Below, piece after piece: positions 727 to 32,513 of a stretch of 32,513 bases of DNA. The DNA is from Spirogloea muscicola. Taxonomy: Eukaryota; Streptophyta; Zygnematophyceae; Spirogloeales; Spirogloeaceae. Position 1 is the stretch's first letter, and each line of letters begins with the position of its first letter. The stretch lies in the NCBI GenBank assembly GCA_009602725.1, contig WELB01000006.1:201108-233620 (forward strand), in the 5' to 3' direction. A program made the position numbers and the translations under genes. The notes below the pieces were generated by a model, which did not search any database, was not told the origin of the DNA, and saw only the letters and a program-made list of their open reading frames with translations.

Positions 727-3700
727 ATGGCAAAGCAGGGGCAGAAGCTGCCTCCTACAAAAGCTGCCGAGCAGGTGTTCCCTCGTGGAGGTCCTGCAGA
801 GCGAGACATTGAGCAGGTACTGCTGATGATTCACTTCTTGAAAGTCTGACAGTCTCCTAAGTTGTTAGTAAGATGACGAAAGGGAGCAGTATCTCATGAG
901 AGAGAGCTTTGCCACCATATGCTATGGAGCGGAGCTCATCGGGGACAAGTCTAGGCTTGAATGTGCAGATGACTTGAGTTTCATTCCAACTGGGGTGCCA
1001 GAGTGCTCTGTATGGTTGCCGGATGCATGGGCGGTTCAGAAGAAACAGCAACACCTGCTGAACAATTTGAGTACTATCATGATTCCTTGTGCAGGCTATC
1101 ACTGCTCTTAAGAAGGGCGCAAATCTGCTGAAATATGGGCGAAGGGGCAAGCCGAAGTTTTGTTCCTTCAAGCTATCAGGAGTAAGTGATCCTCGTGACA
1201 AGGACCTCAGCAGCTCACAACGAGGGATGGGCAAGCTCTACTTGCAGCATCTTACATGGATATGGTCCTCATCTCTCACACTCCAAGGGAGACTTGTGTA
1301 ATGCAGGACGAAGCAGACTTGGTCTACTACTCAGGAGCGTCAGAGAAGACCCTTACATTAAGTACTGTGTCTTCAATATATCCTGGGCAGCGAACAGTAA
1401 GCAGAGAAGGATCAGCATGTTTCAGCTTGTAACTGCTGAGGATGTACTGACCAAATGAATTTATGCGTTGTAGAGACTCTGACCTGCTAAGTCACTGCTG
1501 CAATGTGAGACTTACTATCTTGAACAATCCAGCACTTATTAAACACGATCTGAACGACCACGAGTCTCGCTTTTCAGACTGCTAATTGAGGTTGTTAATC
1601 TGTCTCTGGCAGCCGGTTTTTAAGCGTTACCCACGACCAGACAAAGAGTACCAGTCATTCTCCTTGATCTATCAGAATGGGGAGCGTTCACTCGATCTTG
1701 TAAGTACAGCTTGACCCTCTGAATATGGGTCGCGAGATGAAATCCCTGTGGTTATGTGTTGCCATTCACTTTTGTCCATCTGATTCTGAGCCCTCGTGGA
1801 GATTGAAAGGACTGTTGCTGCACAGTGACAAGTCCTTGCACTATGTGCTCACCGCAGATTTGCAAGGACAAGGACGAGGCAGAGATATGGTTTATGGGAT
1901 TGAAGGCCCTCATCACAAATGTCCGGAAGCCCAAATTCGAAAGTCGAGGCTTGGGTGGGTCAAGGTCAAAGGTTGCATCATCTCAGGAGTTTTACAACAG
2001 TCCAAGGAGCAGCCTCCTTGACATGGCAAATTACGGCAGCCAAGACGAGTTGCAGGTAGGCCCCCATTCCGAACCTCCTGCCTTACTCACAGTCCTGTCT
2101 TCCTCGGGACATTGTATCTCGCTAATGATCAGCAGTGTCTCAGTGGCACTGAAGGGCGTCCAGGTGACTCCCGCCATTGCCTCGGCTCTCATCCTTCTTG
2201 TCAGCCCTTGCCGCCATGTTGCATACGCTTCCTTTTGATAGGTATTCACTGCAGAACAGCGCCAGCACCAGCTGAGTTTATTCGTGTGCAACTCTCTGTG
2301 TTGGCAGAAGGCTATTGCCGGTGGCTCTTCTCAGGGGGGTACCTCGCAAAGATCATCTACTCCAGGTTCCCCCAGCAGGGAGAACTCTGAGTTGCCCTCC
2401 CCTCAGGAAGGTGACGGGAGTGGGAATCTGGACCCATCAGGCCCACACCACGTTTCCAGGGGCTCCGATGACTTTGCTCAGCTGTTAGCCGAGATGAGGC
2501 AATCAGGGGAGATCTTGTTTGATGCTGGCCCAGCCAGTTGGTCAGGCCGCAGGTCCCCTGGGTCGTCTCTCATGGGTGCTGAGTTGCTAGAAAGGCGGGG
2601 AAGGGTATCACCAGGCCTGGCGGGTGGCGAGAAAAGCAATGGCGCAGTCCTGCTATTGGCGTCCGGCAGATCGCCTCCTCCTTTTGGGAGCTTTATGTCG
2701 TTGGTTTCGGAAGACTCTTTTACGCACACGACCAAGAGTGCAACTTTTGGCGAGTGGAAATACAGTGGAAGATTAGACATGCGGCAAAGCCGGGAGTTGT
2801 CAACAACGAGTAGCCAAGGCTCAGGAGCTGAGGGCGAAGATGAAGTGCTGGGAGACGTGCATGCCTGGGGAGAAGGCTTGGCAGGGGGAGTTCTTGGAGG
2901 AGGGGTGAGAAAGGGAAGCCTGGCAGCAATGGGATCCGGAGTGGCTGAAAGCATCAGTGCAACCTCTGATGCCCTCCTGCCCCGAGCATTAGAGTCATCG
3001 GTGGTGCTGGACGTCATTAATATTGCTTGCGGTGGACGACATGCTGCTCTGGTCAACAGAAGAGGGGAGGTTAGCCATGCTACTGACTTACACTCTGACT
3101 TTGTGTACTTGGAGAACTGGGTCGCCGCTTGTTTGTATCATTCAGAGGAGTCAGCTTGTGCCTTTGCTACTTTCAGTACTTGCTCCAAGCACTCCACTTT
3201 GACTATACTTCAGTATGCACAAAGCAGGTCTTTTGCTGGGGTGAGGAATCAGGCGGTCGTCTGGGCCATGGCACTGATTGCGATGTCCCCCATCCTCAGC
3301 TAGTGGAAGCTCTTGCAAGCACCAATACCGTGCAGGTAGCGAGCCCATCTTGTGTGTCAAAGAAGAGACCAGGACTTACTAGTTGCTATGAAACCAAGCA
3401 CGCATCACTGTATGCACCACAGGTTATCATTCCATTTGTAGTATTCACATATAACCTTCCCACAATTTGTGGACAGTATTTTAAAGAGTAGATGGCACTT
3501 ACAATGCACTTGAGTGCTTGTTGTGCCAGGTGGCGTGTGGCGAGTTCCACACATGTGCAGTGACTCAGGCAGGGGAGGTCTACAGCTGGGGAGACGGGAC
3601 ACACTGTTCAGGGCTGCTCGGGCATGGGAATGACATCAGCCACTGGATACCGCGCAAAATCAGTGGACCCCTGGACGGGCTGGTTGTCAGGCAAGTCTCG

Positions 3701-6700
3701 TGTGGCCCATGGCACAGTGCTGTCATCACTGAAGCGGGCCAGCTCTTCACCTTTGGAGACGGCACATTTGGTGCTCTGGGCCACGGCGACTATAAGTAAG
3801 TCTTTCATCAGCAGGGACATGGGCAACTTATTTGCCTGAATGTGAAGTACATCTCTGACTCCGTCTATTGACTCGGTTTACACCTCCACTTTTGCTGGCC
3901 ATTGATAGCTGTTATAGATTTGCTTGGAGCATTATAGTGCCTGAGCTATGTCATTCTGACAACCTGCCAAGCAGGAGCTATTCTACTCCGAAGGAAGTGG
4001 ATGCATTCAAAAACATGTATGTATCCACAGCAGCCTGTGGAGTGTGGCACATGGCAGCCATTGTTGAGAGACGTTCAGTCCTCTTACCAGGCGATGTAGC
4101 AGGGGCTCTCGAGCCTGCAGACGGGTTCTTCTCTCCACCTGGTTGGTAACCACCACAAGCAATATGGCACAGCAACCTCTTGTATATGGAAGCATGTCAG
4201 GATATTTATTGCTATCCCGGCCAACTCAAATCTGTGGGCTACTCTCAGTGACTTGCGGTACTCCCCTTTCCGGCTGTGAGAGTGTGTAAATGGAGCAGCC
4301 CCTGTCAGACCTGAAGCCGATGCACAAACATGTCAATGCTGCAGGTGACCTTTATACCTGGGGCGATGGCGACAAAGGCCGGCTTGGGTTCAAGCCTGAG
4401 AGCAGTTCTGCTGTGTCAGTGCCGATGATTGTTGAGTCCCTGCAAGGACACAGCTTCAGTCAGGTGGCCTGCGGTCACTGCATCACTGTGGCGCTGACCT
4501 TCCTGGGACAAGTTTACGTAATGGGAAGCAGTGCTTACGGCCAACTCGGTGTACCAGGAGCTTCTGGTCGAGATCCAGGTATACGTACACCACAACAAGT
4601 AGGCAGATTGAAGCATTTCCTTTCATTGCTGCCAAACTCTGAAGCCTGACAACTGGCTTTGTGACGCTTGTCTCCATCTCAGCGCAGCCTTCAAGCTTAC
4701 ACCTGGCAATGTGCAGTCTTTGGCAGATGGGCTAACGCAAAATTTGGATTGTCATCATGCAGTGCTTGTGGAGGGTAAATTGAAGGGATCTCCTGTCGAG
4801 CAGATTGCATGTGGTGCTTTCCATGTTGCAGCCTTGTCCATCACTGCCGAACTCTTCACGTGGGGCAATGGCGCAAGTGGAAGGCTTGGCCACGGTGACA
4901 GCAAAGATCGAGAGTCACCTACTCTTGTGACAGCGTTGAAAGACAAACGCGTCACGCATGTGAGGAGCCTGACCGAAATATGTCAATCATGTGTTGTCAG
5001 ATGTCTCTGTGCGAGCAATGAGTCATTGTGGAAAACGTTTGTGAAATTGGCACTTCAGAGGGGTGAACAAGTGATTCCTGACATACTGAGCAGGAAGTTA
5101 GCTTGATTTTTGATGAGATATAGAGCAGCCTGTGGTCATGAAGCTTTCTGAGGATCTCTTTTACTCCATTGCTGTCACGCGACTCTCAACACACTGAAGA
5201 TGTGCTGTTGTGCAGGTGGCTTGTGGGGTTAGTTACACTGTGGTCATCAGCCAGCACAAGTTTGTGACTGGAGCAGACCATAGCATGTGCACTCAATGCA
5301 AGCAGCAGTTTGGCTTCACCCGCCATCGCCACAACTGCTATCAGTGTGGTCACATATTCTGCAGCTCGTGCTCCTCCAAGCGGGCCTTGCGGTAAGTTAC
5401 GTTCTCTCCTTCCTGTATGAACTCTTCAATTGCATGTTTGCAGTAAAATGAATGGTCAAGTGAAGGCCAGTTGTATGGGGTTGACGGGAGCACCTTGTGT
5501 CAGGGGCGCGTGACAGCTCAACATGCTCAATACTCCTCACCAAGGTTCCCAGACTGAGCACATTTGTCATGCTTTGGCAGGGCTGCAATGGCTCCAGACC
5601 CCAACAAGGCCTACAGAGTTTGTGACTCCTGCTTCCTGAAAATCTCTAATCTTGGTGAGGGGGGCGAGCTCGTTACTAGCTCCATGCGATCTATACCTGG
5701 GACAAAGTGGAAGGCTGCAAGAGGAAAGCTGGAGACAAACAGATCTTCTGGTGCGTGTTGCCTTCCGTAGTGGTGACTTTGTTGGGCGCTTTGTATCTGG
5801 CCAAGAACCTTCTCAGGTTGCCTTGAGGATTGCCAGCAGGCCAGATGTATGATCAGCCTCCGTCAAGTCTCAGCAGATCAGTGGAGCAGTAGGTTTGCTG
5901 CTGTGAGTGCGAGCCCAATTTGCATGACAAAGCCTGCACAGGGTCTCCTCCTCAGCTGTAGCTTAGCTTGTGTGATATGCTTGCAATGCCTCGTGGACCC
6001 CAGCTGCTGTCAGAAGTGGGACTGACAAGCCATAGAGCACTGTCACCTGTGCCACGCACACTTGCTGCAGCAGGAGGCCCCACGTTTCTGCCCTCTGTGT
6101 CGAAGAGCTATCCTCCTCCGGCCCCAGGCGCCGGAGCGCCAGGCAGCAACCCTGGCCCTGGTGGCCAGCGAGCAAGGGGCACCAGGTGGCCGGGCGAGAA
6201 GTCTGACCGCATTCATCCGGCGCCGCAGTGGGGTATCGTCAACGCTCCCCCATCCTTTCCAAGGCCTGCACAGCAACAGATGACTGGAGCTGTGGTGAAC
6301 GCGACACAGCCAGCTTCGTTGGGCCAGTCTGCAGCACGACCCAGCGACCTGCCTCCACTTGTTGGCTTGAGCGGCGGGCTTGACAGAGTGAGGGACAGTC
6401 AATCAAAAGCAGTGGCACAAGTGGTTCCCAGGGAAATTATAGCTTCAAATACACCGAGACCCTCAACAGCGCCGAGTGGCTCGAAAGGAAGTGCAAGCTC
6501 CTCTGCGTCGTCTGCTGTGGTAGATGATCTCAAGCGCACCAATGATGCCCTGTCCTTGGAGACCGTCACATTGAGGAGACAGGTGCGTGCAGAGTGGATA
6601 TATTTCAGCGTAGGCCGCAAGCCAAGGATCAATTGTTGGGGACAGGCCATTTATACTCTTAGGAGCAAGCATTGTGGCTTACTACTCTGTGACTTAGTGA

Positions 6701-11431: not shown

Positions 11432-11641
11432 CAGGAAGCGCGGCCAGATTGACTGGTGGCTTGGAAAGGCAAGCCCAAAGGAATGGACAAGGTCTGAATG
11501 AGCGAGTGCGAAGGACTAGGACTAAGACATCAGCCAGGGGACGCTCAGTAACCTCATTGGGAGTGCCACTTCTTCTTGGCCCCCTTCGGACCTTGTGTCA
11601 ACTATTTCGGGCTGGCAGTTGTTCACAGCCCTTGCCCGCCT

Positions 11642-11839
11642 TTGCACCAGAAAGCTGGGCGAGCTCTAGTTGGTGGCAGAAGGGCTTCGTATCTGACATC
11701 TAGTACTCATGCATCGATTAGCGACCTTTATGGTTTGACCCGTGGTTACCGAGCGGATCAATCTGCTGTAGGTTATGTAGATCTTCAGATGTGCTTGCCT
11801 TTGTACTTGGCCATTGGCCTACGTTTGTTTCAAATACAC
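11642..11839 (+). repeat. 198-bp repeat module, inverted partner at 19724-19921
   Basis: This stretch (caccagaaagctgggcgagc at the left, gcctacgtttgtttcaaata at the right) matches the reverse complement of 19724-19921 over its whole length with scattered mismatches. The two copies are about 7.9 kb apart, face opposite ways and lie either side of the kinase gene. No coding content is recognised. Confidence 0.85.
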
Positions 11840-12076: not shown

Positions 12077-12854
12077 NNNNNNNNNNNNNNNNNNNNNNNN
12101 NNNNNNNNNNNNNNNNNNNNNNNNNNNNNNNNNNNNNNNNNNNNNNNNNNNNNNNNNNNNNNNNNNNNNNNNNNNNNNNNNNNNNNNNNNNNNNNNNNNN
12201 NNNNNNNNNNNNNNNNNNNNNNNNNNNNNNNNNNNNNNNNNNNNNNNNNNNNNNNNNNNNNNNNNNNNNNNNNNNNNNNNNNNNNNNNNNNNNNNNNNNN
12301 NNNNNNNNNNNNNNNNNNNNNNNNNNNNNNNNNNNNNNNNNNNNNNNNNNNNNNNNNNNNNNNNNNNNNNNNNNNNNNNNNNNNNNNNNNNNNNNNNNNN
12401 NNNNNNNNNNNNNNNNNNNNNNNNNNNNNNNNNNNNNNNNNNNNNNNNNNNNNNNNNNNNNNNNNNNNNNNNNNNNNNNNNNNNNNNNNNNNNNNNNNNN
12501 NNNNNNNNNNNNNNNNNNNNNNNNNNNNNNNNNNNNNNNNNNNNNNNNNNNNNNNNNNNNNNNNNNNNNNNNNNNNNNNNNNNNNNNNNNNNNNNNNNNN
12601 NNNNNNNNNNNNNNNNNNNNNNNNNNNNNNNNNNNNNNNNNNNNNNNNNNNNNNNNNNNNNNNNNNNNNNNNNNNNNNNNNNNNNNNNNNNNNNNNNNNN
12701 NNNNNNNNNNNNNNNNNNNNNNNNNNNNNNNNNNNNNNNNNNNNNNNNNNNNNNNNNNNNNNNNNNNNNNNNNNNNNNNNNNNNNNNNNNNNNNNNNNNN
12801 NNNNNNNNNNNNNNNNNNNNNNNNNNNNNNNNNNNNNNNNNNNNNNNNNNNNNN
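12077..12854. other. Assembly gap, 778 N
   Basis: A run of 778 unknown bases. It begins inside repeat-family sequence (ggctggc stem, then cagtcaattcggccgcgc) and ends in extremely GC-rich DNA. Open frames that appear to span it are meaningless. The first exon or promoter of the kinase gene may lie in or near the gap. Confidence 0.99.
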
Positions 12855-19723: not shown

Positions 19724-19921
19724 GTGTGTTTGAAACAAACGAAAGCCAAATGGCCAAGTACAAAGGCAAGCACATCTAAGACCTATATAACCTACAGCAG
19801 AATGACCCGCTCAGTAACCGCGGGTCAAAACATAAAGGTCGCTAATCGATGCCTGAATACAAGATGTCGGATAAGAAGCCCTTCTGCCACCAACTAGAGC
19901 TCGCCCAGCTTTCTGGTGCAA
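19724..19921 (-). repeat. 198-bp repeat module, inverted partner of 11642-11839
   Basis: This is the reverse complement of 11642-11839 along its whole length with scattered mismatches: caaatggccaagtacaaagg here corresponds to cctttgtacttggccattg there, and ctagagctcgcccagctttc to gaaagctgggcgagctctag. It lies between two GGCTGG-stem modules. Confidence 0.85.
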
Positions 19922-19927
19922 GGCGTT

Positions 19928-24000: not shown

Positions 24001-27000
24001 TACTCATTCTGAGTTGGCTGGGGGTGCTCAGGTGGATCCTTTCTCGTTTGTTGAGGCTGAACGGGACTGCCATTCTATCACTCGCTGCTATACACGCCTG
24101 CACATGATGCCCGAATTTTCAAGAGTGAGTAAGCCTTCACTATTCCTTTTATTGTGAAGATTACTTTGACCTGGTGGGTCGAAACAGGCTCTTCCAAGCT
24201 CATATACCAATCTCAAGCTTACGATTAGTCTAATGTCGAAGTGATTGTGATTTGAACAGCTGGTCGCGTGCTGGGTAGCCAACAAGGACATGATCTCCAT
24301 TTCAAATCCTATCAGGTCCGTCTATCTTTCAAGCCCTGGTCTAGAGCTAAGCTCTACTTACCCGTACACTCTGGTTCTTAGCTTTGGATTGTGGAGGAGC
24401 ATCTTCAGAATGTTGCAGTGAAGCCCCGTCTTACTCGCCAGCTCAAGCATTCACACGACACAGTCAACCCCGTTGGCTTCATTGGGAAGGATGTTCGGCA
24501 GTCCTGTCAGCTGCGACGCCCTTCAGCTCGGTTCGCCAGCAGCGCCTAGCTTGTTGGGTTTGTGCGCGATGGTTTTGATCTACGTGGCTTCCACGGCAAG
24601 AGGGAATGACGGAGCCATTTCGTCCGTTTTCCTCCACTCCTGGACAGCTTTGAGCACGACATTGTAGACATAGAGGACGAGACTGCTGCGATGGAGACTT
24701 CTGCAAAGCCAACACCAAGCCCGAGGACTGTTGGGAAAAGCTCTGTCTATAATGTCAAGGTAAAGCGGCTTGGCAGTGTTCCAGTGTGGGACAGTAGGTG
24801 GCAAAGGGTGGTGTCCTACTCATTCTCCAGCCTTGCAGCTATGTCTACACCGGCCATCAACACCATGTCTCCTTGGCTCTAAGCACAATCAGGGGGGTCC
24901 TTCTGCTGCGTTGATATCGCTAAGCACTTCTTCGAATTGGTCTTCCAGTCGATGGCTGTCTTATCCTTTCAAAGGAGAAAGTCAGGCCCTACAATGACAT
25001 CTTCTGGGCGAGATTCTTGGCTAAGAACACCTCAGGCTGACCAAGTGGCAAGTGCTGTGCCACGCCGAATGGTCAGATATGACAGAGCCAGATCAGGAGC
25101 CTCTAAAGATCCTCCAAGTTTTATCAGCGCACTCCTTCCTCTAAATCTACTCCATTCCACTATATTTGTAGGTCATGTTGATGACTGGCGCTGACAGAGC
25201 TGCTCTGGAGGAGTTGCTGGTGGAAGTCAAGACACTGAATGATGGCAAGCCCATGCACCTGCATAATCTGGTGAAATTTGTGACAGTGCGCAAGGATCGC
25301 AATGCAATCATGCCAGTTGGAGGCTCATGGGATGCTGATCTTGATGGCGGGGACCCTTCTACTGATGAAGCACTTATTCGGACTGCTATCAGGTATGTTG
25401 TTCTTGTATGGCTAGCATGTGGCTGGCATGACCACAAAGATCATTACATAATGCAGCTCCTCTGTAGCCCCGAGAATTGTGGCTACTAATTGTACAGAGT
25501 CGGTTCCTTGTTTGGCTTCAATGAAAGTAGTGTTGAGCGCGTGACATGCAAGGTGATGATACTGTGGCAGATGTACAAAAGAGTTGGTGCATCTGGATCT
25601 CAGCGGCTGCAAACAGTGGACTCGCTTCATAGAGGTCTGTCACTGAGCTTGCATAGAAGTCAGTCAGAGGCCCACGCTTCATAGAGGTCAGTCATAAGGC
25701 CAAGGCACCATGTGCTGTAACAGCATGCATCCGGTTTTTAATTGTGCATACCGTCTCCCTGAAGTCATATGCACCAGATATTGCTGCCTGTATTCTGGGT
25801 CCTTCAGTAGCCGCAAGAAGTCAAAATGATACTGCTATGATAGCACCTTCCCTGAGCATGCGCCTCTGACATGCAGGTCCATTATGAGAGGTCTGCGGGC
25901 AACAACTTGGCCAGCCATCATGAGGTCACCATTTTCTTCCTTCCGTCCATTCACGACATTGTTCCATCGCTGGAGGAGTGGAGGTCCGTTTGGAAGTCAC
26001 ATCAGCAGCAAGTTAAGATATCAAAGGAAAGTGCCACTTTGGACAAAAGCAAACCTGCTAGCGACAAAGCAGGGCAGCAAGAGAAGATGAACATGCCCAA
26101 GGAGGAAGAGGAGACGAAAGACATGCCTAAGGAAGAAGAGGAGGTGACTCACACAACATTAGTCACCTTCAAGGCTGAAGCCTAGACTTGGGTTGTGAGT
26201 CAAGTCTGTCTAATGCCGGGAGAGGACTGATGGGCTTGCAGGTTGCATACAGATGCGCTGAGCAGTGTGTTGAGCATTCTTGATGTTGTGCTTTGCCAAG
26301 CATCACTTCTGCATGGACTGGTAAGGTCTCTCGACCTTTGGTAACACGCTGTAGGTGTCCGTGTGTATCAGAAAGTGGAGGAGGGCAGCATCGAGCAGCC
26401 GCACCAGGCACCAGCGGCAGAGGTTGCACCACAAGGTACTTTGGCATTGCTGTGCTTCATGCATGACGTGGGTCCTGATTGATGATAAGGGTTTTGCCTG
26501 GCGAGTGAAATGAGGCTGATACTGAGATTGCTGGTACAGATGGCCAAGAGATGCAGGATTCCGCAGAGCTTCAGCCAGCAAGTGACGTTCTGCCAGGTGA
26601 GGAGGCAGGCGGCAAAGCTGGAGACCTAGCTACAACTGATGGGCAGCAGGAGGAGGTGAAGCTTGAAGGAAACGATGAGACCAGCAAAGTTCAGCCCATG
26701 GAGGAATTGAAGGACGTGGAGATCGCGCCATCTGAGGAGCAAGTGCATGCTGAATCGACTGTAGAAGCACCGCAGGAGTCAGGACTGAATCCGATGGAGG
26801 TCGACGTGCAAAAAGAGGAGGCCTCGGCAGTGCCGAAGGAGACAGACCCAATGGAGGAGATCAAAGATGAGCCAAAGCAGGAAAGCATTGCTTCAGAGCA
26901 CGTGAAGGAGGAAAAGGAAAGCAATGAAGAGCCAAGCAAGGAGCCAGAAGTAGGCGAGATGGAGGCTGGCATGGACCAGCCTGCATTGCTGCTTGTCACG

Positions 27001-28769
27001 GAGCGTAGCAAGCACGCCAAGGTGAGGGTCAATGCACATGGTATATACCAACGGGCTCGGTTCCCACGCCAATTTTGATACCATCTCAAGATGCTAGTCC
27101 AAAGGTACAGGGCATCCTGGTTGTGGTCAAGTTTGTGAGACTTCATTGCTTGGATGCAGTGGAAGTCGGTGAGCATCTCACTGGATGGGCTTCTGGATTA
27201 TGACGAGGAGGACAAGGAAGAGTGTACCTTCGAGGTAGGTCATTCCGACTGTAGTGCAAGATCATCATGAAAATTTCATCGTATATTTCTGCACAATGGA
27301 CATCATCCTTCCTGGGCCCTGGTCATGCATGTAGATGGGCCTCGACCTGAATGATTCTGTGGCGCTTCTACAGCTGTCTCTCTTTGCTGAGAGCTTCAAG
27401 GAGATGCTCCAGTGTCGCTACGGCTGTCATATACTGGGCGCACTGGAGGTCCAATCTCTACTTCCACCTTCTATGCACAACAATGAAGCATAGCTGGCGG
27501 CATAGGCTTGTAGCTCAAATTACCACATGTATTTAGAAGCATCCAAGCATACTGGCTGAGCAACCTCCTTGTCTGCCAGGCATTGTGGGTGCAGAGCCAC
27601 GGGCGCAAGAAGGAGGAGAAGAAGCGGGCACGCTCAGAGGGCGAGAAGAAGGACAGTGGCAAAGAGGAGCCAGCTGTCAAGAAGCAGGAGGTCGAAAAAG
27701 AGGGAGAGAAGGAGGTCAAGAAAGAGGAGCCAGCGGAACAATCGGACGAGCCTTTGCAGAAGCAGGGCAATGATGTCATTGACATTGAGGAAACACCCGC
27801 TGGCAACCCCCCACCTGCCACAGAGAATGGGGATGCTGGTCAGCACACCACTGATGCAGTTGAGGTGCCTGAGCACAAGGTGACTGCAGAAGAAGGTGGG
27901 ACAGAGGAGAGTGCTGCCCACGCTGGGGAGGAGCCCCCCAAGCAAGAGCAGGGCCAGGCTGAGCCACAAACGCCACTGCAGGACATGGTTAAGGAGGTGA
28001 AGCAGGAGTCTGAAGCGGCGGCAAAGCCTAATGACGTTTCTGTGCGAGAAGACGAGGATTACCAATCTGAGATAGAGGATGCGAGGGAGGTGAGCAACAA
28101 GCTATCAGAACGTGGCAGGAACTAGTCAGCAAGTTCAGTGAGATTTCTGCCTCCTGCCTCCACCGCCAATCGGATTTGTAGCATCCTCACTGGTGTTGTA
28201 TAATCTCCGTGTGCAGGCCTTTCGGTACTTTGATCGCAATCGAACTGACACCTTGAAGGCAAGGCACTGTCTATCTGTTCTTAAATTTTGTGTAGCCAAG
28301 GGAGTCAAGATGTAGTCACTTGCCTGGAGTACATTGTCACAAGCTTTTGTCATCAGTGCAAGCTTGCATGAGGTCTCTATGAGGTCCCTCACAGAGGTTT
28401 TCTTAAGAAATAGCTATATATTGACGCTCCTTGCAACATTGTTGCTTGTTTGCATGTAGGCTGAGGATGCCCGATGCATCTTGCACAACTTAGGCAAGTA
28501 CCTCACAAGCAAAGCTGTGAAGGTGAGTCACAGTAGTGCCAGAGTTGTCATGGGAAGCATGTCACTGATACCATATCATGCAGGCCCCAACATTGGGAGG
28601 CAACAGAAAGATAGTTGCCCTTGTGGGATGCTCACAAGCTCAGTAACATGCTGACTATTTCCAGGACCTGGTGGCCTGCGCTACATCTGAGACTGCTGGG
28701 AAGTCAAGAGCAGAAGCCATCCTCTACCAGAACATTGGGAAGAAACAGCCAGGTGGAGATTCTAAGTAG
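20560..28769 (+). CDS. RSA1: CCAR1/DBC1-family nuclear coregulator, SHORT ROOT IN SALT MEDIUM 1-like
   Basis: Exons: 20560-20714, 20966-21202, 21341-21424, 21577-21978, 22389-22504, 22655-23004, 23159-23465, 23725-23770, 24032-24124, 24260-24315, 24648-24759, 25172-25392, 25498-25552, 25877-26143, 26372-26435, 26540-27021, 27160-27234, 27335-27448, 27580-28089, 28217-28258, 28460-28522, 28665-28769; about 1,315 residues, in phase after exon 1. Order: Tyr/Gly/Ala/Gln-rich N-terminus with poly-Gln; Arg/Asp/Glu tract (23320-23465); conserved core (RKSYVCK, FEHDIVDIEDE); DBC1 inactive-Nudix-like region (MTGADRAALEELL, PVGGSWD, VHYERS, EEWRSVWK); acidic Lys/Glu tail; SLDGLLDYDEEDKEECTFE and LSLFAESFKEMLQ blocks; C-terminal EF-hand-like segment (AFRYFDRN, ILHNLGKYL). 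Arabidopsis RSA1 acts in the nucleus with RITF1 in salt and oxidative stress responses; animal CCAR1 is a coactivator. No SAP domain seen. A single N at 20567 puts the ATG out of frame with exon 1. The 21202 donor (gtcttg) is weak; 21246 is an alternative. Confidence 0.92.
20567..20567. other. Single ambiguous base that breaks exon 1 frame
   Basis: The ATG at 20560 reads through ATG AGC CNT, but the clearly coding Tyr/Gly/Ala/Gln frame of exon 1 begins at TAC 20568, two positions out of step. The N probably marks a collapsed or unresolved few bases in this GC-rich leader and not a real one-base ambiguity. Confidence 0.75.
20981..21022 (+). repeat. CAG repeat encoding poly-Gln
   Basis: Fourteen codons, nearly all CAG with one CAC and one CAA, inside exon 2 of the CCAR1/RSA1-like gene. 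They give a Gln tract interrupted by one His. It is likely length-polymorphic. Confidence 0.95.
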
Positions 28770-29230
28770 GTGGAGATTCGAAGTACAGGGATCTGTGTAG
28801 GAACCTTTTTGGTAGGCCAAACCTTGAGTGGGTCTCATCAAAGAGATGCAGAGCTACTCCGAGTGGTGTTGTCGTTGAAAGCGTTGCAGCTTTTGCCATC
28901 CCACTTTCAGAAGTGGTCTAGTTGTTGACACTAACCTCTGCCAACCTCTGTGGCAGCATAGTGCTGCACGCTCACTTTTGATAACCTGATTGTACACCTC
29001 GCGGTTTTGATCACCTGATCACGTTTGCTGGGCAAAGTTTCTAGCTTGACCTTGTTTGACCGAGAATACTTACACAATGGTGAGCTTTTTAGGCACTTCC
29101 CAGCACAACATTGAGGATGCATGTGCGGGTCGAGACTTAATGGCCACTTTCTACCAGTGACCCCGGTACTTCGAGGACGCCACCTGGGGTTGTTGACATA
29201 GCTCTGGGGGAAAAGTCTGAAAGGGCCGAC
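28770..29230. other. Spacer after the CCAR1/RSA1-like gene
   Basis: This follows the TAG at 28767-28769, so its first part should be 3' untranslated sequence. No coding region, RNA gene or strong repeat is seen. Composition is moderate in GC. The sequence turns into dispersed-repeat DNA at about 29240. Confidence 0.4.
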
Positions 29231-29239
29231 CGGGGCTAA

Positions 29240-29811
29240 AACAACACAGCTATGCAAGTGACTACAGCGAATGGGAGCTCAGCCCAAAGGCGTGGACAAG
29301 GTCCAAACGAGCCACAAAGAGCGAAGCCCAAGGCTTTGCGGGGCGTTAGGAACAAGCACTGCGGCTGGAGGAGGGGTGCTGGCGCCCACTCGAGAGCGAC
29401 AGTGGTTGCAGCGGTCTCAGACCCCGGGTTGCAGAGCGAAGCCCAAGGCTTCGCAGAGCTTGGGAACAAGCACTGCGGCTGGAGAGAGAAGGCTCGCCCT
29501 GCGCATGAAATGAACGGAGAGAAGGCGTGCGATGAGCATGAAATTGAAAGGGAGGCCGTTCAAGCGTTACAAAAGTCCTGGTAACGGGGCAATGAGCTGG
29601 CTAAGGGGGACAATCATATCCTCGAGTGAGCACACACACAGCTGACAAGCTGAGCTGAGGAGCCAGACTACCACCACGGAAACCGTTAGCCTGGCTTAAT
29701 GCACGCCCAGCACGAAAGAAAGTGCTCGCCCATAGAGGAAGTGCCCATAGAAAGTGCTCGCCTATAGAGAAGAGGGGCTGGCAAAGCCAGCCCAAAAAGA
29801 ATGGATAATGC
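29240..29811 (+). repeat. Third cluster of the dispersed repeat family
   Basis: The order is: acacagctatgcaagtgac (shared with 20246-20264); a direct repeat pair at 29318-29370 and 29433-29484 (agagcgaagcccaaggct...aacaagcactgcggctggag); the gagaaggcgtgc and gaaagggaggcc words (29517-29560); aatgagctggctaagggg (29591-29608); the gtgagcac, ctgacaagct, ccaccacg words (29628-29680); and aaagtgctcgcc with the GGCTGG/CCAGCC stem (29733-29803). This is the longest contiguous run of the modules in the window. It ends about 45 bp before the transposon terminus. Confidence 0.8.
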
Positions 29812-29847
29812 TTAAAGCTAAAGAAAGAGGTGCCGGAAAAGGACTAC

Positions 29848-29910
29848 AGTCAAACCTCGATGTAGTTACACAGGTCGGTTTGGCAAGGATGCGTAAGTAC
29901 ATCGAGGTGT
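29848..29910 (+). repeat. Transposon terminal repeat with subterminal inverted words
   Basis: The terminus CAGTCAAACCTCGATGTA at 29848 is followed about 40 bases later by tacatcgaggt (29897-29907), the reverse complement of acctcgatgta (29855-29865). This makes a small subterminal palindrome. Such subterminal repeats are common transposase binding sites in Tc1/mariner-pogo elements. The partner terminal repeat is not in the window. Confidence 0.7.
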
Positions 29911-30285
29911 TCCTACGCAGCCACATAGGTAAATTTGGGGGCAAAAGTACGTATAGCAAAACAATCCACAAAATGGCCATATTCTTTTTTAAAATGCCGA
30001 TGGGCAAGTTTATCCCACAAGGTGGAGTCAAGCATTCTTCCCCAATGTCTTTACAAGCATAGGCATCCCATATCGACCAAGATAAGGACACACATGCATA
30101 CAACCACTTAAGGTGATCCAATTGATATTCACCATGTGCACACTAGCGGAGGTATCGCACATCGACCAACATGAGGTAAGTCAAGCATACGGACAACAAT
30201 AGCTATCGCATCCAAGGTGGGGGAAAGGGAAGAACGGAGGAGGACGATAGGGGAGTTGAGACGAGGGGAGGGGAGCCAAGGTGAA

Positions 30286-30476
30286 ATGGCAACCAACGCT
30301 GAAGTGGTGAGCGCGAGTGAGCAATATGTCCGTGTTGAGCAAGCCGAATTTCGAACCAAGGGACCCCTACTCGACCTATGCCACCCCCTATCGCCCCAGT
30401 ACTATGACGATACAATGGAGGAAGGGGCTGATGAAGAGGGTGAATGGAGAGGGAGGATGTGTCGACGGTGATGAAG
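30286..30476 (+). other. Possible plus-strand exon inside the transposon, unidentified
   Basis: The frame through PNFEPRDPYSTYA ends at gatgaa|gtaagt (donor at 30477), and a second frame opens at the ATG at 30286 but stops just before that donor. It runs opposite to the C-terminal transposase exons. I recognise no family and found no convincing next exon. It may be an accessory frame, captured sequence or chance. Confidence 0.2.
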
Positions 30477-30609
30477 TAAGTCTAATGTCATGTTATCTAC
30501 TTGTCGTCAACTCTTTCCGCGGACATGTATGTCGAGATCTTAGCCTGCTTCCTGCTAAGCATGTGTAAAACCGCATCGTTCGCCGCCATATTTTGCCAAC
30601 GCTCGCACA

Positions 30610-31322
30610 TCAAGATCTCCTGTTGTGTGAGCGATGCATTCCTTGTGCAAGGTATCTACCTACTTGCCCTATCAATACAGTCGCTTCATTGTGCGTTATC
30701 CATCGAGAGGGAGGATCATCGGAGTCATCGTCTTCACCGTCGTTGCTTGTTGAGGGTAGGATTTGAGAAACGATCTGTTCATCTGTGAGTGTGGATGGAG
30801 CCTCAACCTGATTCAACACATCGAATGTCACCATATATGACGATGACAGCATCATTCAATGCTTCATCATTCATTCTACATTGCATATGCCATAGAAGCT
30901 TAAGAAGGAAGCATAAGTTGCAAGCGTCACTTACTTCGTCTTCCCATGGAAGATTAAGATATTCTTCGGCACTGAGTCCATTTGGCCCAAGCTTCAGGTC
31001 GGCGATATCGCGTTCAAGCTCTTGCAAGTCGGCGGCCTCATCATACGGCTCAAGTTGATCTTGATCAAGCATGGCACTGTCCTGAGCCCACTTGGGAAGG
31101 ATGGCTGCCTTCTTCCAGCAGTTTTGGATTATCGCAGCAGGAGTCTCCGCCCAAATCGCGACAGTCCATAGGATAGCCTGCATCCATGAAAAGCCACCAA
31201 CTTCAGTACACACTTCAATGTCACAAGCATGGAATCCAATCAAACCAAAAGTAAGATAGGATCCTACCTTATAGATGGTGTGCTTATCTTCGTTGAGGGG
31301 GCCGTGCACATGCGTATCCACC
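30610..31322 (-). pseudogene. Tigger-like transposase, C-terminal exons
   Basis: Minus-strand exons: 31322-31268 (THVHGPLNEDKHTIYK), 31177-30935 (AILWTVAIWAETPAA, IIQNCWKKAAILP, ending LPWEDE before a GTAAGT donor), and 30807-30610 (STLTDEQIVSQIL, acidic DGEDDDSDD run, NEATVLIGQVGRYLAQ, stop at 30610). The order of an Ile/Trp-rich helix, NCWKKA motif, T-D-E-x-I-V block and acidic tail is the usual C-terminus of pogo/Tigger transposases. The preceding DDE core exons are not found upstream; plus-strand N-terminal exons begin instead at 31361. This is therefore a detached C-terminus. Confidence 0.75.
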
Positions 31323-31360
31323 CTACTCTATTGATGACCACCACATCCTTTCTCATGCAG

Positions 31361-31996
31361 GTATACAAGGACGGCTAGCCAAGCGACGAGGAAGAGAGAT
31401 GTTAGAGTCATGTTTTACTGACTTGGACCGCAAACGTATCTGTGAGCTGAAGAGGACAACCCATCCATGACACAAGACCAGATAGCTAGGGAAGCATCGA
31501 AGAAACTGAAAAAACAGATCAGTCGAGTCGTTGTGTGCCGATTCCTCAAAGAGGCGACCAGGTGGTTGAACGTTGCCGAGAGCACTTTCAAAACAATGCG
31601 CCATAAGGAACCAAAATGGATGGACGTGGAAGCTGCCACCTTTAGATGGTTTGAGGACGTGAGTCACATTTCACAAGCTGCTTAATGCATGCTCATGCCC
31701 GTGCTCATGCTCATGCTCATGATACAATCACACAATCCAAGCCCATGGCACTAATGTGCATATCCGCCAGAGAAGTGGGATAAATCATATGCATAGCAAC
31801 TCGTATGATTGATTGATTGATTCGAACAATGGTGTGAATCATTGCAGAGGCGCAAGACGAAGCAACACGTGCCGGACGACCAGCTTGTGGGCATGGCATG
31901 CAAATTTGCTAAGATGTTCAAGATCAATGGGTTTACTGGTTCTTGAGGCTGGCTCTCAAATTTAAAACGAAGGCATAAGATCAAACTTCACTACAT
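31361..31996 (+). pseudogene. Tigger-like transposase N-terminus, left inverted copy, frameshifted and with a stop
   Basis: Parts: 31361-31470 (RLAKRRGREMLE, DRKRICELKRTTHP, then TGA); a shifted continuation from 31467 to 31658 (MTQDQIAREASKKLKK, VVCRFLKEATRWLN, EAATFRWFEDV, ending at a GTGAGT donor); and 31848-31996 after a cag acceptor (DDQLVGMACKFAKMFKING, in-frame TGA at 31944-31946, then GWLSNLKRRHKIKLHY). These are the Psq-like and CENP-B-type DNA-binding helices of pogo/Tigger transposases. A one-base slip near 31464-31468 separates the first two parts. The copy is non-functional as read. Confidence 0.75.
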
Positions 31997-32002
31997 ATAT
32001 GG

Positions 32003-32068
32003 AGAGGCACAATCAGCAGATCCATGTAGAGGCACATATATGTAGAGGCACAATCAGCAGATCCATGT
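32003..32068 (+). repeat. 25-bp direct repeat in the hairpin spacer
   Basis: agaggcacaatcagcagatc plus catgt occurs at 32003-32027 and again at 32044-32068, 41 bp apart. A shorter piece (tagaggcaca) lies between them. The spacer of the inverted repeat is thus mostly a tandem duplication. Confidence 0.9.
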
Positions 32069-32075
32069 CTTCACC

Positions 32076-32513
32076 ATGTAGTGAAGTTTGATCTTATGCC
32101 TTCGTTTGAAATTTGAGAGCCAGCCTTGGGAACCAGTAAACCCATTGATCTTGAACATCTTAGCAAATTTGCATGCCATGCCCACAAGCTGGTCGTCCGG
32201 CACGTGTTGCTTCGTCTTGCGCCTCTGCAATGATTCACACCATTGTTCGAATCAATCAATCAATCATACGAGTTGCTATGCATATGATTTATCCCACTTC
32301 TCTGGCGGATATGCACATTAGTGCCATGGGCTTGGATTGTGTGATTGTATCATGAGCATGAGCATGAGCACGGGCATGAGCATGCATTAAGCAGCTTGTG
32401 AAATGTGACTCACGTCCTCAAACCATCTAAAGGTGGCAGCTTCCACGTCCTTCCATTTTGGTTCCTTATGGCGCATTGTTTTGAAAGTGCTCTCGGCAAC
32501 GTTCAACCACCTG
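32076..32513 (-). pseudogene. Tigger-like transposase N-terminus, right inverted copy (runs off the window)
   Basis: It mirrors 31559-31996. Minus-strand exon 32513-32414 is partial, the intron is 32413-32225, and the second exon runs from 32224 to at least 32076. Where the left copy has TGA, this copy has CAA (32128-32126), reading FTGSQGWLSNFKRRH without a stop, so it is the better-preserved version. The intron is present in both copies, so the duplication occurred at the DNA level. The rest of the gene, if any, is outside the window or deleted. Confidence 0.75.

Follow-up and report, generated by a model that had tools for sequence, protein, structure and literature searches.

The right end of the window, the 32,513-nucleotide stretch of Spirogloea muscicola DNA analysed here (C6:201108-233620 of a 153-Mb, 471-contig assembly), holds a damaged transposon copy in which part of the transposase gene is repeated in mirror image. 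The locus appears to be a defective, rearranged transposon copy that has the potential to form a hairpin and is cut by an assembly gap; as such it would be ordinary in kind.

Structure of the palindrome

The inverted repeat is present in the window. Its two arms are each 438 nt long and are 79 nt apart (Table 1). The arms are identical at 433 of the 438 positions, and the longest exact run is 321 nt. An initial annotation, made from the letters of the window, had given the same arm lengths, an identity of about 99% and a 79-bp spacer, all of which are borne out. The RNA fold of the 955-nt palindrome has an energy of -884 kcal/mol, compared to a mean of -284 kcal/mol for 20 shuffled sequences, indicating that the pairing is not due to chance. 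Within the loop and the last 4 nt of arm 1, a 41-nt unit (31993-32033) is followed by a 35-nt partial tandem copy (32034-32068).

An intron-like stretch bounded by the motifs GTGAGT and TTGCAG makes up 189 nt of each 438-nt arm, and its counterpart in arm 2, placed from the motif positions, spans 32225-32413. The initial annotation described two copies of the DNA-binding exons, intron included. The intron is present in both arms; however, the full exon 1 is found in the left copy only, and the right arm comprises the last 100 nt of exon 1 followed by the intron and the beginning of exon 2. The left exon 1, which is 288 nt long, is broken: its start codon differs from that of both complete copies of the element, and two stops are positioned inside it. 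The inverted duplication itself was correctly recognized, but it does not start at 31361 as annotated, since the inverted segment extends from 31300, inside an element that starts at 29845.

Table 1. Features of the rearranged element and its left neighbour, in window coordinates
Feature	Position	Strand	Basis or remark
DBC1-domain piece of gene left of the element	25172-25489	+	Pfam DBC1, 2e-12; conceivable source of read-through
Rearranged pogo/Tigger-like copy	29845-32513	- (transposase reading)	BLAST against complete copy C139:161432-165342; right end lost in gap
TA and left terminal inverted repeat, 28 nt	29845-29872	+	Comparison of ends among copies
Left part of element, complete-copy positions 1-1466, normal orientation	29845-31301	+	BLAST against complete copy
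C-terminal transposase reading frame	30803-31327	-	Open reading frame in left part of element
GG common to both pieces at left junction	31300-31301	.	Exact 2-bp overlap
Inverted segment, complete-copy positions 3122 down to 2393	31300-32024	+	BLAST against complete copy
Exon 1 remnant, left copy	31371-31658	+	Start codon changed, two stops
Arm 1 of palindrome	31559-31996	+	Five mismatches to arm 2
Intron-like stretch GTGAGT...TTGCAG in arm 1	31659-31847	+	Motif positions
Loop	31997-32075	.	Between the arms
Arm 2 of palindrome, normal orientation of element	32076-32513	-	Reference positions 2424-2859 at 32079-32513; ends at gap

Organization of the rearranged element

The reference for the numbering of the element is the complete copy at C139:161432-165342, which is 3911 bp long and was used as it stands. 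In this numbering, the window copy is composed of positions 1-1466 in the forward direction, positions 3122-2393 inverted, and positions 2424-2859 in the forward direction up to the gap. Positions 1467-2392 (926 bp) are missing. In a profile search of the genome, positions 1-144 of the 177 positions of the DDE_1 profile fall within the C139 counterpart of the missing stretch. The missing stretch thus contains most of the catalytic domain, and its place is taken by the adjacent N-terminal gene segment, copied in inverted orientation, with an overlap of 2 bp at the left junction. The inverted piece has internal breakpoints at both sides and lacks a terminal repeat of its own. The C-terminal transposase frame of the window copy gave no match in Pfam.

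An inverted internal segment of this kind is present in none of the other seven close copies, two of which end in gaps. A genome search in which the best candidates were scored found the palindrome at one place only, without a second example. Neither the loop nor the left junction was found a second time, and the matches elsewhere were to their separate parts only; these searches scored the best candidates, so that a missing match is not equivalent to absence. Both complete copies have about 47 bp of self-complementary sequence (85%).

Transposon family in the genome

The genome search with the complete copy returned 53 listed matches, with 40 of the 61 candidates scored. Among the matches listed, eight places, including the C139 query, have an identity of at least 89%. 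The copies in C139 and C240 are complete by sequence, 97% alike, and are putative sources of transposase. Internal deletions are found in the copies in C106, C300 and C153, those of C106 and C300 being simple, and the C106 breakpoint at 1485 is close to position 1466 of the window copy. The copies in C6 (the window), C77 and C341 run into N gaps. TA and 28-nt terminal inverted repeats are present at both ends of the copies in C139, C240, C106 and C300, and the C153 copy has TC where the left TA is expected. The window copy has the TA and the 28-nt terminal repeat at its left end, and its right end is inside the gap.

The DDE_1 domain of the C139 copy was matched at 4e-20 (Pfam), and both C139 and C240 are among the 26 matches of the DDE_1 search of the genome. 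The spacing between the second and third D of this domain is 41 residues in the complete copies. The pogo/Tigger-like nature put forward initially agrees with the TA and 28-bp terminal repeats and with the DDE_1 domain of the complete copies, and the search that had been suggested for relatives finds complete copies in C139 and C240. "Tigger-like" is the label that we presume for the window element, and it appears to be a reasonable one. A DNA-binding domain of the CENP-B/HTH type was sought in the C139 copy. Exon 1 reached 18.1 bits against HTH_Tnp_Tc3_2, for which the cut-off is 31.5, and the exon 2 frame matched no family in Pfam.

The presence of pogo elements in green algae is reported in PMC7386202, and a Tc1/mariner survey states that no elements were identified in Chlorophyta (PMC7325037). 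A MITE-like family of short relatives is similar to the final ~110-180 bp of the element (71-79% identity) at no fewer than 32 places (e.g. C303:77717-77874), at least six of which also match the first 66 bp of the element, about 0.2-0.45 kb away.

Surroundings of the element

The last base of the right arm is also the last base of the window, and the gap begins with the next base, C6:233621, which is N. Every base read within C6:233621-254255, a range covered except for 251001-253000, is N, which gives the gap a length of about 20.6 kb, and called sequence resumes at C6:254256. The right arm has no right-hand flank because it is cut by the gap, which masks the true length of the arm and its right-hand neighbour. 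The far side of the gap was considered as the other half of the element and rejected, as the 1,745 called bases in C6:253061-256000 do not match the element.

Gap edges were compared using 20 control stretches of 9 kb, hand-picked at round coordinates on 19 contigs without a random generator. The 26 edges tested have at least 500 called bases each; 15 are in control stretches and the rest at other loci studied. Two of the 26 edges, the window's own and one of the 15 control edges, have an inverted repeat (100 bp or more at 85%) within 1.5 kb. Only the repeat at the window's edge reaches the gap, and the unrelated control one ends 664 bp short of it. Two of the 20 control stretches (L033:373-1734 and L041:6427-6574) contain close inverted repeats of 145-171 bp and a 148-bp palindrome, which are probably small repeat families.

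Three diverged copies of the left flank, which holds a DBC1-domain gene, are present in the genome: window 25001-29713, C37:182140-186744 (92%) and C21:322758-327144 (87%). Their number and divergence would fit a set of copies as after a genome triplication. Neither C37 nor C21 provides a clean empty site. The C37 sequence runs into a gap. The C21 fragment matches the window up to position 29834, with no match to the element within the 6 kb fetched; it was rejected as a clean empty site because a dispersed repeat adjoins the shared part and the similarity is lost before the TA is reached. Immediately left of the element, at 29517-29714, is a dispersed repeat that recurs at about 40 or more further places with ~76-89% identity (40 of the 2789 candidates scored), and is probably much more numerous than the matches listed. 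Further to the left, the window contains an RCC1-repeat gene on the + strand (2242-4649; RCC1 7.9e-20 at 4290-4649) and two inverted copies of a 0.2-kb repeat (11637-11839 and 19724-19925), which are 91% identical and 7.9 kb apart, the first being near the window's internal 778-base N gap (12077-12854).

Probable origin of the palindrome

We favour, with some reserve, the explanation that the window locus represents a pogo/Tigger-like DNA transposon copy that is defective and has been rearranged internally. A repair rearrangement within the element is preferred because both breakpoints of the inverted piece lie within the element and the piece has no terminal repeat, because the left junction has a 2-bp overlap and the loop a tandem duplication, and because the C106, C300 and C153 copies are internally deleted, C106 with a breakpoint near that of the window copy. 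A break within the element may have been repaired with template switching, which would have generated the inverted segment, and the event may belong to the same class as that behind the internal deletions in other copies. The rearranged copy would not give rise to a working transposase. Long double-stranded RNA would be produced only if a right-end promoter in the gap or read-through from the left gene transcribed the locus, and no evolved function is expected.

The broken exon 1 and the substitution pattern of the arms also speak for this explanation. The arms have substitutions in common that neither complete copy shows, three of them clear and two in the indel-rich fold point. Private changes number four in arm 1 and one in arm 2; at four of the five differing sites, arm 2 has the state of the complete copies and arm 1 is private. 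Copies concealed by gaps could, however, carry some of the changes that appear private to arm 1 or common to both arms.

Alternative explanations

It is possible, but in our assessment unlikely, that the palindrome is an assembly artefact absent from the genome, produced when fold-back or chimeric reads extended or mis-joined a contig end that lay in a multi-copy element. Arm 2 stops exactly at the gap, so that the rearrangement is unbounded on the right. The element is multi-copy, and assembly fails in this transposon family, because the C77 and C341 copies also end in gaps. The single occurrence of the loop and left junction among the best candidates scored likewise points to an artefact. 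However, in none of the 15 control gap edges does an inverted repeat reach the edge, and the loop and left junction resemble products of repair. The complete-copy state of arm 2 at four of the five differing sites would not arise if arm 1 had simply been read a second time; reads from other copies, however, could produce it. The palindrome is probably real.

A silencer comparable to Mu killer would require that both arms are transcribed, that the RNA folds back and is cut by Dicer, and that the resulting small RNAs silence the complete copies in trans. We regard this function of the locus as improbable. Silencing in trans is possible because the genome contains complete copies and genes with Argonaute domains and with paired RNase III domains, and because 65-75% of the 21-mers of the arms are exact in a complete copy. 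Specifically, 273 of the 418 21-mers of arm 1 and 313 of the 418 of arm 2 occur exactly in at least one complete copy, in which putative small RNAs from the arms would find targets. The genome profile search yielded 19 Piwi-domain matches at four loci (C188, C41, C54 and C5), and six RNase III matches that are paired ~1.3-1.5 kb apart at C67, C277 and C9, as in Dicer-like genes. The energy of the folded palindrome also speaks for a silencer.

A corresponding search gave no match to RdRP, and the miss is not counted as evidence because none was found in any control genome either. PMC7994812 reports RDR homologs in streptophyte algae and, for S. muscicola, three DCL2/3/4 copies attributed to genome triplication; the triplication is also mentioned in PMC9065682 and PMC11547041. 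The genome analysed here likewise has three paired RNase III loci and three copies of the left flank, and its nuclear genes for the small subunit of Rubisco (eight matches at four loci), which seem streptophyte-like, point to the green lineage. Conceivable sources of transcription are the element's own right-end promoter and read-through from the plus-strand DBC1 gene. However, the element end with the expected promoter is inside the gap, each arm is partly intron, and the hairpin route is disputed even for Mu killer, as discussed in PMC3440606.

We give little credence to a self-contained version of the silencer, in which the remainder of the element lies within the gap, the inverted segment of ~0.7 kb is fully paired, and a single RNA covering arm, loop and arm is transcribed from the native promoter at the right end. 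Such an element, possibly mobile and non-autonomous, would silence its own pogo/Tigger family via Dicer without a flanking gene. Two separate insertions of the same family facing each other would place homologous pieces in opposite orientation, but this explanation is rejected as hardly credible, since the inverted piece is broken off inside the element at both ends and lacks a terminal repeat, and since arm 1 and arm 2 have substitutions in common that both complete copies lack.

A palindrome that proves real and transcribed would represent a naturally occurring hairpin trigger directed at a DNA transposon in a lineage other than flowering plants, similar to Mu killer but in a streptophyte alga, a group in which small-RNA knowledge is called almost non-existent in PMC7994812. 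The start of the silencing of a transposon family would then be directly testable in a simple alga. Should the locus be no more than a damaged copy or a product of misassembly, it would show that a palindrome abutting a gap needs to be checked before it is taken for a locus.

Comparison with known systems

Among the best-matching open-access titles and abstracts, no such locus is described for a pogo/Tigger element in algae. Derivatives of pogo/Tc1-mariner elements and MITEs arise as internally deleted, defective copies. The window copy is likewise defective by internal rearrangement and keeps its left terminal repeat, but it has an inverted internal segment in place of the deleted part.

The parallel to maize Mu killer (Muk) drawn in the initial annotation holds in part. 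Muk is a rearranged MuDR that, like the window element, is internally deleted, carries an inverted duplication of part of the transposase gene and has a palindrome whose centre is difficult to sequence (PMC3440606), a likeness qualified by arm 2 of the window copy ending at the gap. The parallel in mechanism is weaker, as the account of Skibbe et al. 2012 (PMC3440606) links Muk silencing to a pair of short antisense transcripts from which the large hairpin could not form; it leaves open a contribution from longer transcripts, and notes that the centre of the Muk locus could not be sequenced. In contrast to the window locus, Muk is described there as genetically silencing MuDR; both of its end repeats derive from one end, the duplication covers ~1.3 kb, and its transcripts are known. 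The window element belongs to another transposon family and has its right end in the gap.

The long-hairpin locus of Teosinte Pollen Drive differs from the window locus in its documented 22-nt RNAs and tested target gene (PMC11390486). The two are alike in that each is a long, near-perfect inverted repeat that could supply Dicer directly.
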